From Haloarcula sp. CBA1129 (GTDB lineage Archaea; Halobacteriota; Halobacteria; Halobacteriales; Haloarculaceae), in contig NZ_RKSM01000001.1 of assembly GCF_008729015.1 (NCBI RefSeq), forward strand, positions 3,100,001 through 3,164,000: a stretch of 64,000 nt of DNA, read 5' to 3'. The notes under the pieces are model-generated. The model ran no database searches. It was not told the DNA's origin and was given only the letters and a program-made list of their open reading frames with translations. A program made the translations under genes and the position numbers. Below, piece after piece: positions 7,750 to 49,989 of the stretch (within the stretch, counting starts at the first letter, position 1; the number at the start of each line of letters is the position of its first letter).

Positions 7750-9009
7750 ATGATACAAACTCGTACACTCGCCGTTTTCGCTGCGCTACTCGTCGTCGGC
7801 GGCCTCACCGCACAGGTCGGGGCTGTACCGGGCGTGACAGCACAACAGGAATCGCCGCTCGAACACGCCGCAAACACAGGGGTCACCGTCGACTCTCTGA
7901 CTGCGCCACAGAGCGTCACACCGAACTCGACTACTGATGTGGCCGCGACAGTCACGAACACCGAGGACGCCACGGTGACCGAGTCCGTGGCGTTCCGCTT
8001 TGACGGCGCTGTCGCCGACCGGACGCTCGTCACGCTCGAACCAAACGAGAGCACGACCGTCCAGTTCTCCGCAGACACGACTGGCGTCGAACCCGGCGAC
8101 TACCGCCACGGCGTCTTCACCAGCGACGACGGGCAGGTCGCCGCGGTCACTGTCTCCGACTCGTTCACGCTGGAGCGCTTCGACGCACCGACGAGCGCCG
8201 CCGTCGGTGACAACATCACCGTCGACGCGACCGTCGCCAACCCGAACGAGTTCAACACGACCCAGACCGTCGAGTTCCGACTAGGTGGCCAGCCGCTCGC
8301 CGCCGAGTCCGTGACTCTCGACGCGAACGAATCAACTGACGTGACGTTCACCATCGACACGACCGGTATCGAGCCGGAGACATACACTCATAGTGTCTTC
8401 ACGCGCGACGACGGTGCGTTCGCCGAGATCACTATCAAGTCTGCTGTCGACACACCTGAAGAACCGCCCGCAAACGAGACTGAAGAACCGCCCGCAAACG
8501 AGACTGAAGAACCGCCCGCAAACGAGACTGAAGAACCGCCCGCAAACGAGACTGAAGAACCGCCCGCAAACGAGACTGAAGAACCGCCCGCAAACGACAC
8601 CGAAGAGCCGCCAGCGAACGACACCGAAGAACCGCCCGCCAACGACACTGAAGAACCGCCCACCAACGAGACCGAAGAACCGCCAGCGAACGACACCGAA
8701 GAGCCGCCAGCGAACGAGACTGAAGAACCGCCAGCGAACGAGACTGAAGAACCGCCCACCAACGACACCGAAGAACCGCCCGCAAACGACACTGAAGAAC
8801 CGCCCGCCAACGACACCGAAGAGCCGCCAGCGAACAACACCGAAGAGCCGCCAGCGAACAACACCGAAGAGCCGCCAGCGAACAACACCGAAGAGCCGCC
8901 AGCGAACAACACCGAAGAGCCGCCCGCCAACGAGACTGACGAGTCGGCTGAAGCCGAGACAGACGAGACAGACGAGACGACTGAGGAAGCAGCGACGACA
9001 GAAGGCTAA
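7750..9009 (+). CDS. Secreted CARDB-like protein with 20 tandem N-glycosylation-sequon repeats
   Basis: A 419-residue predicted exported protein. Residues 1-32 are a Sec-type signal peptide (TLAVFAALLVVGGLTAQVGA). Two beta-sandwich modules of the CARDB/NEW3 kind follow at about 38-135 and 137-236, each ending with YRHGVFTSDDG or YTHSVFTRDDG. Residues 237-396 are exactly 20 copies of an 8-residue unit EEPP(A/T)N(E/D/N)T, and residues 397-419 are an acidic Thr-rich tail. Every repeat contains Asn-X-Thr, an archaeal N-glycosylation sequon. There is no C-terminal anchor or PGF-CTERM, so it is probably released or bound to other surface proteins. The ATG at 7750 is chosen because it opens the signal peptide. 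Function unknown. Confidence 0.85.
   Translation: MIQTRTLAVFAALLVVGGLTAQVGAVPGVTAQQESPLEHAANTGVTVDSLTAPQSVTPNSTTDVAATVTNTEDATVTESVAFRFDGAVADRTLVTLEPNESTTVQFSADTTGVEPGDYRHGVFTSDDGQVAAVTVSDSFTLERFDAPTSAAVGDNITVDATVANPNEFNTTQTVEFRLGGQPLAAESVTLDANESTDVTFTIDTTGIEPETYTHSVFTRDDGAFAEITIKSAVDTPEEPPANETEEPPANETEEPPANETEEPPANETEEPPANETEEPPANDTEEPPANDTEEPPANDTEEPPTNETEEPPANDTEEPPANETEEPPANETEEPPTNDTEEPPANDTEEPPANDTEEPPANNTEEPPANNTEEPPANNTEEPPANNTEEPPANETDESAEAETDETDETTEEAATTEG
8458..8937 (+). repeat. 24-bp tandem repeat array, 20 units
   Basis: Twenty in-frame 24-nt units encoding EEPPANET variants. The first five units are almost identical in DNA sequence, and units 16-19 (EEPPANNT) form a second homogeneous block. 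Units between them mix GAG/GAC, GCG/GCC/ACC variants. This patchy homogeneity indicates expansion by slippage or unequal recombination in separate bursts. Confidence 0.97.
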
Positions 9010-46754: not shown

Positions 46755-47687
46755 TTACCCCACCGATATCATTGCGATACCGACGATAGCCAGCCCTGCA
46801 GCGGCTAGGCGTGCCCGGAAGTGTGCCTCATCGAGAATAACCGCACCCAGAATGACGGCGATGATAGCCTGCCCGTTGACGATAGGCGAAACGATACTCG
46901 CCGGGAGCAACTGGAAAGACAGTAACACGATGTGATTCGCGTAGGCGACGAACATCGCCGCGACGACGAATTTCGGGAGGTCCGCCCGCCACCCCGGAGG
47001 GATCTGGTATCGGAACGCGAGCGGCGCCATCAACGCAGCGATGCCGACGGCCATCACCGGGATGTACGTCGTCGGCTCGATGGCCAGTTCCTGCATCAGC
47101 ACCCGCTTGCTTACATCGACGAGTGCGAACGCCGCAGCCGACAGCAAGGCTAGCTGTGCGGGCCGGGACTGCCGAGCCCGTTTGAGCGGAGCCAGTAACG
47201 CCGTCCCTTGCCAGTTTGCGACGTAGACGGCGGCGGTCGCGACGACGACACCGCTGACCTGTAGCGGCGAGAGGTGCTGGCCCAGCAGTCCGACTTCCAG
47301 CGGCAACACGAACACGGGGACGATTTTGCTAATCGGTGACACGTAAGAGACTTCGCCGACGCGGATCGCCCGAAAGAGAGTGAGCAGTCCCACCGCCGTC
47401 ACCGCCGTCACGGCGAGCACTGACGCAAGGACGCTGATACGGTTTCCTGCTGGGAGGAAGGGCTCGTTGCTGACGAAGACGATGGGGAGGTAGACGATGG
47501 GAACTAGGCTGTACGTAAGCAGCAGGAACACCGGCGACGGGTACTCGGTGAACCACCGCTTCATCACGAACAGGTACACCCCAAACACCAGCGCCGACAG
47601 GACGGCGTACGCGATTCCGACGTTCACGGTTGACAACGGCCGGCCGTCCGCAATAACTGTTCCCTTCGGGATCGTGTCAGGAACCAC
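46755..47687 (-). CDS. EamA/DMT superfamily transporter
   Basis: A protein of up to 310 residues with ten hydrophobic helices in two EamA halves. The first opens [20 protein letters not shown] and the second [20 protein letters not shown]. Most members export or import metabolites. The GTG start at 47687 overlaps the surface-protein gene by 11 nt. An internal GTG at 47627, just before the first helix, is an equally plausible start giving 290 residues. Confidence 0.85.
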
Positions 47688-49989
47688 GCTGGCGGGCGAT
47701 CAGGGCCGCGACCAACACTGCGAGGCCAGCCACGAATGCGGTAAAGCCGTCGCCCTCTCCGGCTGTTGTCCGTGTGTTTGTGGGCGTGTCCGTCTGAACC
47801 CGAGTCGGTTTCGCCGTCTCCGTCGACACGAGTACGTCGACCGCTGTCGCGGCCCGTCCGTCACCCGCCGACAGCGACACCGTGCCGGGCTCGTCGAGGG
47901 CGACCGTCCGCGTGACTGTCCTCGTCGCCTGTGGCGGGAGATACAGCCGCTGTTCGGCGAACACGATGCCGTCGCGGCGGAACTCGACCGCTATTGTTCC
48001 CGGAATATCGTTGGCGTTGGCGACAGTGGCGGTCACGTCGACCCTGTCCCCCTGCCTGACTTCGCGTGGACTCACGGCGACGTCGGTTACGCTGGCCGCT
48101 GCTGGTTCTGACACGATGACTGTGACAGTGTCGCCGTCGACGCTGACCACGTATCGGCCGGGGTCAGCGAACGTGTGTGTTATCTCGACCTCGGTCCGTA
48201 CCCCCGGTTCGATCTGGCCCTGTTTCGCGGCGACGACGGTCTCGTTGACCGCCAGCGTCAGGTTGTACGTCCCCGCCTCACCGCCGGCGTTCTCGACGAC
48301 CGCGTCGACGGCAAGTGTTTCGTTCGTCGCTAGCTGAATCGACTCGCTCCCACCGACTGGTGCGTCTGACCGGTAGAGACTATCTGCGCGGTAGGCATCC
48401 GTTCGGTCGACCGGTGGGAGGCTGTAGCCGATACGGGCGGGAATCGCACCGAACAACCGCCGGTGTGTCGTCTCGTTCCACATCGCCACCGTCGCTGTCG
48501 TTTCGGTCTCCGTCGCGGTCGTATTTCGGACGCTTGCGCCACCAGCGGCCTCGACCTCGGTGAGAAACTGCGATTGCGTGACCGGGTCACGATAGCCGTT
48601 TAGCGACTGAAACACGCTCTGGAGTGTCTGGTTGCGGTCAGTGGCTGAGCGGATATGGACGTCGGTCCGTCCGGCGACGAGCGCACCCTTCCAGTAGTTC
48701 GCGTCGTTCGTCCAACTCGACCGGTCCGTCAGCGCCACATCGCTGTAGACGGGCCGGCCGCCTGCTGCGAGCTGTGTCTGGAACTCGTCGAACCCGATCC
48801 GGTCCTGTTCTAGGGTCAGGACAGCGGCGTAGTACGTCGCCCAGCCCTCGACCGTCCACCGCGTCTCCCGCGTCGCCTCGTAGGCCTGCCGGCTGTGGAC
48901 GTACTCGTGGAGCCAGACGTTGTTGGCGGTGTCCAGCGTCTGCCGGGACTGGACCCACATGTCCGCGTCACCGATCTGGTACCCCTCGACGCCCCAGTCG
49001 ACGGCCCCGGACGGTGCGGCGACGACGAACACCTGCTCGTCACGGTCGCCGACTCGGAGCGCGTTCGACGCGTTCGCCATTGCGTCGAGGACAGAAATCG
49101 GCGAGGCCGTCATCGTCGCCCGCTCTGGCACAGCCAGCGTGAACGTCTGGTTGTGTGCCGTCTCCCTGAACGTCGCCACTTCGCCGAGGTACACGATCTC
49201 CGCGCCCGCTGCCCCCGGTCCTGCAGTCCGGAGTGTGCGGTTGTACCTGACGGGGTCCTGACCAGTGTAGCGCCAGCGCGTCGGTGTCAGTGACCGGGTG
49301 AGCAGCGCCCACTCACCCGTATCGACGCTGAGATACCGGCCCCCGGCTCCCTCTGGACCGCTCTTTTCGATGGTCTGGTTCGGGTTGATGCGGTAGCTGA
49401 TCGTCGCTGGCCCCGGTGTCTCGTCCCACTCAAACACGGACTCGTTGACACGCTCGAACCCGTCTGTTTCGGTCACTGTCGCCGCTGCTGGGACGTGCGT
49501 TTCGAGGCCAACGACCCGGTCCGGGACCTCGTAGGTCAGGGTCACCGCGACTTCGCCCGGCTCTTCCGGCACACGCGCGTAGGTCTGTGTCTGCTGAATC
49601 ACGTCACCGTCGCCGGTCTGTGTCGCACCCGATGTGGCCGTCCCTGTCTCCATGTTTGCCGCCGTCGCAGCGGCCGCTCCGGCCGCGTCTCCACCCTGTT
49701 CTCGTGGCTTCCGCCGATGCGTGTCGGCGCTTCGTGTTCGGACCAGCGAGCTGTTCGACCCGTTGCTGGCTGTCGCTGGCTGCACTGACTCGACTGTCGG
49801 TCCACGCTGTTCCGACGCCGGACCGGCTCTGTACGTACAGTTCTCGGCGCTGACTCCAACTGCTGTTCCGTCGCTGGCCCCGGCCGGTACGTGGTCAGTG
49901 GTCGCCGCCACCGGGAGCGACGCGATTCCCCCACCGAGGAGAAGGACCACGAGTCCGACGGCCACCACGCGCCGGGGTGCAACAAACAT
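47677..49989 (-). CDS. Surface protein with gluzincin-like HExxH motif and CARDB-type domains
   Basis: A 770-residue exported protein. The signal peptide is at residues 1-29. A disordered Thr/Ala region (about 30-130) precedes a central domain containing HEYVH at 361-365 and a third possible zinc ligand Glu381 (WTVEGW), the pattern of an M1/M61-like metallopeptidase. Two CARDB-like beta-sandwiches follow (about 540-640 and 640-720). The end is a Thr-rich stretch, GEGDGF, a hydrophobic helix and RQRGS, resembling the PGF-CTERM surface-anchoring signal without the exact motif. Substrates unknown; it may process S-layer or secreted proteins. Confidence 0.75.
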   Translation of the reverse strand: MFVAPRRVVAVGLVVLLLGGGIASLPVAATTDHVPAGASDGTAVGVSAENCTYRAGPASEQRGPTVESVQPATASNGSNSSLVRTRSADTHRRKPREQGGDAAGAAAATAANMETGTATSGATQTGDGDVIQQTQTYARVPEEPGEVAVTLTYEVPDRVVGLETHVPAAATVTETDGFERVNESVFEWDETPGPATISYRINPNQTIEKSGPEGAGGRYLSVDTGEWALLTRSLTPTRWRYTGQDPVRYNRTLRTAGPGAAGAEIVYLGEVATFRETAHNQTFTLAVPERATMTASPISVLDAMANASNALRVGDRDEQVFVVAAPSGAVDWGVEGYQIGDADMWVQSRQTLDTANNVWLHEYVHSRQAYEATRETRWTVEGWATYYAAVLTLEQDRIGFDEFQTQLAAGGRPVYSDVALTDRSSWTNDANYWKGALVAGRTDVHIRSATDRNQTLQSVFQSLNGYRDPVTQSQFLTEVEAAGGASVRNTTATETETTATVAMWNETTHRRLFGAIPARIGYSLPPVDRTDAYRADSLYRSDAPVGGSESIQLATNETLAVDAVVENAGGEAGTYNLTLAVNETVVAAKQGQIEPGVRTEVEITHTFADPGRYVVSVDGDTVTVIVSEPAAASVTDVAVSPREVRQGDRVDVTATVANANDIPGTIAVEFRRDGIVFAEQRLYLPPQATRTVTRTVALDEPGTVSLSAGDGRAATAVDVLVSTETAKPTRVQTDTPTNTRTTAGEGDGFTAFVAGLAVLVAALIARQRGS

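Follow-up and report, generated by a model that had tools for sequence, protein, structure and literature searches.

Haloarchaeal genomes encode many paralogous surface proteins that carry two CARDB/Ig-like domains (PF07705). Haloarchaeal S-layer glycoproteins share AglB sequons and an acidic Thr-rich C-terminal stretch, and those of Haloarcula hispanica carry both N- and O-linked glycans, with O-linked Glc-Gal (PMC9943897). A very sequon-dense surface protein is SlaA of Sulfolobus acidocaldarius, in which 9 of 11 C-terminal sites were found to be occupied (PMC4245038), and Halomucin of Haloquadratum walsbyi is a secreted, loosely cell-associated protein for which the formation of a hydrated coat has been proposed (PMC4378361).

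Here we describe a gene of Haloarcula sp. CBA1129 located in a stretch of 64,000 nucleotides (hereafter the window; contig NZ_RKSM01000001.1, positions 3,100,001 to 3,164,000). Its product likewise has two CARDB/Ig-like domains and adds to them a C-terminal array of 20 units, each with one N-glycosylation sequon. The sites in SlaA are scattered at about one per 45 residues, whereas those of the array are in tandem, one every 8. With 25 sequons per 419 residues the protein is ~2.5 times denser in sequons than the S-layer glycoproteins of the same genome (21–22 per 925–942 residues). It was nevertheless ruled out as an S-layer glycoprotein, as it has neither the TIGR04207 surface-glycoprotein signal (no NCBIfam match at E up to 1, while the genome's own S-layer genes match) nor a PGF-CTERM; the S-layer proteins end in PGFTAAIALIALVAAALLAVRRDN, as opposed to the hydrophilic C-terminus seen here. 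Halomucin, which differs from it in size and sequence, is likened to it by description only. A literature search returned no paper on this protein, the novelty of which is the arrangement of known parts.

Domain architecture and anchoring

The coding sequence (7750–9009, plus strand) specifies 419 residues and a stop codon, comprising a Sec-like N-terminus, two CARDB domains, the 20 units and an acidic tail, and has Haloarcula orthologs in the same gene order. The hydrophobic N-terminal segment (aa 1–33, 7750–7848; hydropathy maximum of 2.04 at aa 8–26) is a probable Sec signal peptide judging by its hydropathy and conservation, with a putative cut site after VTA and no lipobox, and export of the protein is plausible on the strength of these features. 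The 236-aa core matches PF07705 in two stretches (40.4 bits against a gathering score of 22.7, E = 3.7e-10). The first domain spans approximately aa 46–130 (7885–8139; sequons N59 and N99; AlphaFold2 strands at 45–132), and the second, supported by the second CARDB stretch and an A2M match over the cut-off, approximately aa 132–230 (8143–8439; sequons N155, N169, and N193; strands at 140–230). An AlphaFold2 model of the core, built from seven sequences, shows two all-beta sandwiches at moderate confidence (mean pLDDT of 71), agreeing with the two beta-sandwich domains proposed in the first-pass annotation of this DNA. The core resembles many tandem Ig-like domains in structure comparison, a generic fold which implies no function, and no function was drawn from matches to transglutaminase, complement, RbmA, and glycoside-hydrolase Ig-like domains, given their high rmsd over both domains. 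The DUF7282 domain (PF23951) is absent from the protein according to Pfam.

Counted from aa 33, the mature protein carries a net charge of –94 and a single Lys; the array itself is free of Lys and Arg. The absence of a C-terminal anchor, already suspected from the first reading, was borne out: hydropathy over 19 residues never exceeds 0.5 after residue 40, the end is hydrophilic (...TTEEAATTEG), there is no Cys, and none of the NCBIfam sorting-signal models, including PGF-CTERM, match. Among the orthologs, mean pairwise identity is 94% in the N-terminal 33 residues versus 89% in the mature core. Higher conservation of a signal-like N-terminus than of the mature core is unusual for a cleaved signal peptide, and since this segment is at least as conserved as the core, it may remain uncleaved and serve as an anchor. 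A second CARDB-like protein of ~770 aa, also predicted to be exported, is encoded in the window on the minus strand (47,686–49,989). It carries 14 sequons, an HExxH-type motif (WLHEYVH), and, unlike the array protein, a PGF-CTERM-like tail, and is possibly an anchored metallopeptidase.

The octapeptide array

The array occupies positions 8458–8937 and consists of exactly 20 in-frame 24-bp units, translated as consecutive EEPP(A/T)N(E/D/N)T octapeptides. Tandem Repeats Finder reports it as a single array (8456–8939, period 24, 20.2 copies, 91% matches) with a score of 604, far above the 51–66 of the six other arrays in the window. An NxT sequon (N-[E/D/N]-T) is present in 20/20 units, against a mean of 2.9 sequons after shuffling the residues of array and tail; the remaining five of the 25 lie in the CARDB domains. 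The array is followed by a degenerate last unit and an acidic C-terminal tail devoid of a hydrophobic anchor (8938–9006). Antisense ORFs over the array were taken as artefacts of a GC-rich repeat, and a scan for bacterial-type promoters and terminators, whose coverage does not extend to archaeal promoters, gave no match.

Two blocks of units are identical in DNA sequence, namely units 1–5 (8458–8577) and units 16–19 (8818–8913), the latter in the NNT form. Neighboring units are closer to each other than in permuted arrays (mean distance of 0.086 versus 0.135; 0/5000 permutations). The original description of twenty sequon-bearing octapeptides, with two homogeneous blocks produced by recent, local expansion at the DNA level, therefore holds. 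Its interpretation was borne out only in part, as discussed below, the idea of a unit defined by its sequon being unsupported.

Orthologs and exchange of the C-terminal half

The array is found on an orthologous protein in 14 other Haloarcula genomes. Orthologs occur in H. mannanilytica, H. amylolytica, H. japonica, H. sebkhae, H. argentinensis, and H. vallismortis. Gene order is the same wherever checked, including genomes G016 and G004, and in the species checked the gene is flanked by rnz on the minus strand and a trkA-like gene on the plus strand, the latter starting 57 bp downstream of the stop codon in the window. Of 391 genomes sampled from the class, 13 contain a pattern of two consecutive sequon units, and all 13 belong to this genus; a plasmid search returned only distant CARDB relatives.

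In genome G030 the ortholog at the same place lacks the array and has in its stead two DUF7282 domains (PF23951, E = 1.3e-67); relatives in G029, G022, G001, and G026 resemble this form by sequence. These CARDB + DUF7282 proteins share the locus, the neighbors and the N-terminal half (55% identity) with the window protein, and differ in having two DUF7282 domains where the latter has its octapeptides. As the genus evolved, one type of C-terminal half thus came to be exchanged for, or replaced by, another, and two changes between the forms are needed on the core tree. The same tree placed G016 as the sister of the window species (support of 90/82), a placement that was dropped as a tree of five neighboring genes, albeit with fewer species, puts G016 beside the outgroup G004 with a bootstrap of 100.

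Turnover of units between species

Fifteen orthologs with a total of 217 units were compared. Complete arrays range from 6 to 20 units, so the expected variability in copy number is supported between species, the collections used holding one genome per species. At 98.7% identity of core DNA, G012 has 18 units, 8 of them with a sequon, and G006 has 17, of which 11 carry one; at 95%, G019 and G027 have 14 and 6 units. The array of H. vallismortis (G009; contigs 32 and 22) is cut by a contig end, the assembly breaking inside it, and a further array-like piece is visible on contig 22. Mean distance between units is 0.188 within and 0.224 between species, and the difference of –0.036 lies well beyond the most extreme value obtained in 500 label shuffles (–0.006). 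Units are thus closer within than between species, which points to partial concerted evolution.

Is the sequon used, and is it what selection keeps?

AglB (TIGR04154) is encoded in the same genome with a score of 921 bits against a cut-off of 450, and was found in all 32 genomes of the genus, 31 of them over the cut-off. Across all species N/(N+D) at position 6 of the unit is 0.62, compared to 0.22 in the genes of the window, and 128/133 Asn residues of the arrays sit in NxT, although within an array this is a consequence of the repeat itself, and the units, being copies, reflect few independent changes. Other spacer repeats of the family (DNETAA, TVDNET, an NGTAG tail, and a DNATD tail) likewise have nearly every Asn in a sequon (2/2, 3/3, 7/7, 6/6, 5/5, 6/7, 3/3, and 14/15, region by region; p ≤ 0.006 each versus shuffles), a result that is indicative only, since the regions were chosen by eye. 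Sequon repeats in spacers and tails of related proteins (L023–L029 and L035), some at the same locus, include ADNETADNETA, TVDNETVDNET, NGTAGNGTAG, and DNATDDG, and some related tails, of the EEPT and PTET types, have no Asn at all (L034, L027, and L030). The sequon is probably more than an accident, to judge from its composition and recurrence, and the array is likely to be N-glycosylated in the window species. Full occupancy of the 20 sites is not to be assumed, as human STT3A can skip acceptor sites that lie close together, which has been reported for NxS sites (PMC4750078).

A different picture emerges from what is conserved. Only 127/217 units have a sequon, and the count per species varies from 0/15 in G016 to 20/20 in the window, with zero to twelve in its relatives (e.g., 6/14 in G005 and 8/19 in G028). 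The G016 protein retains a 15-unit octapeptide rod with no sequons, despite an intact AglB and five sequons kept in the core. Position 6 is N in 128 and D in 78 units, with few others, and is one of the array's more changeable positions in other species (pN of 0.27 in G006). Thr8, by comparison, is present in 216/217 units, including 89/89 of those without N6, with its codons free to change synonymously (104 ACC and 101 ACT); E1, E2, and P3 are present in 212, 215, and 216 of the 217. The pN/pS of the array is 0.05–0.18 within species, close to the 0.19 of the core between species. Low pN/pS and retention of Thr8 without N6 indicate purifying selection on E1, E2, P3, and T8 rather than on the sequon as such. 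We conclude that the protected feature is an acidic, Pro-rich rod, to which the sugar load is a changeable addition, contrary to the first-pass annotation, in which the sequon defined the unit.

Proposed explanation and alternatives

We suggest, with a probability of roughly 0.55, that the gene encodes an exported protein in which two Ig-like (CARDB) domains are followed by an acidic, proline-rich rod of turnover-variable length, many units of which are probably modified by AglB. From its composition, the C-terminal rod would be extended and intrinsically disordered. Slippage or unequal exchange of the 24-bp unit would rapidly change its length and sequence, with purifying selection holding its chemistry (E-E-P-x-x-[N/D]-E-T), and the resident AglB would very probably modify the NxT units at least in part. 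In the window species the rod would then be a glycan-decorated, strongly negative brush, and in some relatives an almost bare acidic rod. Its likely role is that of a spacer or brush that positions the Ig-like domains around the cell surface or at a distance from it. Two observations sit uneasily with this explanation. The same rod exists without a single sequon in G016, and sequon number differs (8 versus 11) at 98.7% identity of core DNA; moreover, with no anchor, retention on the cell is left unexplained.

The sequon-free rod of G016 and the presence of non-sequon units in all 14 other orthologs would be expected if the rod were simply an unglycosylated acidic, proline-rich spacer that needs no more than length, solubility, and a negative charge at high salt, in which Asn6 is tolerated, being one transition away from Asp6 (AAC/GAC), and has been fixed in the window species by accidents of unit copying. 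The almost exclusive alternation of N and D at position 6, the indifference of Thr8 to N6, and the plain EEPT or PTET tails of related proteins or paralogs agree with such a spacer. What makes it doubtful in our view is that N/(N+D) is about three times the value in the genes of the window, that array Asn residues occur almost only at the sequon position, and that Asn falls in sequons in unrelated spacers of the family as well.

Thr8 is also the most conserved modifiable residue of the unit, even where there is no sequon, as would be the case in a mucin-like rod that is mainly O-glycosylated at this position, with NxT being secondary. Precedents are the Glc-Gal of the H. hispanica S-layer mentioned above and the O-glycosylated Thr-rich regions reported in S-layer proteins of Halobacterium and Haloferax (PMC4245038). 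However, Ser, which could equally take O-glycans, never replaces Thr8, and as the O-glycosylation pathway is described as unknown in the same source, there are no genes to search for; we consider this reading improbable.

That the sequon itself is selected, every unit glycosylated, and glycan number the selected trait, as originally proposed, accords with 20/20 sequons in the window despite variable positions 5 and 7, with the use of NxT and not NxS throughout, and with the sequons of unrelated spacers, but the counts in G016, G005, and G028, the failure of Thr8 to relax upon loss of N6, and the relative freedom of position 6 make it distinctly improbable. A neutral minisatellite, in which 24-bp slippage maintains an array without function, would account for the blocks of identical units, the likeness of neighboring units, the differing copy numbers, and the greater similarity of units within species, but is hardly credible given the low pN/pS of the array and its retention on this protein, with the reading frame unchanged, in 15 species.

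Implications

Returning to the acidic rod with partial AglB modification, a more speculative extension, which we hold to be rather unlikely, is that the array acts as an evolvable dial of surface sugar load, in which unit turnover lets a lineage change rod length and the number of N-glycans (0 to 20 sequons) independently while the folded domains stay unchanged, providing surface diversity, e.g., against viruses. Should the array be glycosylated, it would offer a potential N-glycan every 8 residues, a density exceeding that of SlaA; should it not be, sequon counts alone would mislead. For the study of glycan dose, the genus provides a natural series in which one rod bears anything from 0 to 20 sequons while the folded domains and the locus stay the same.
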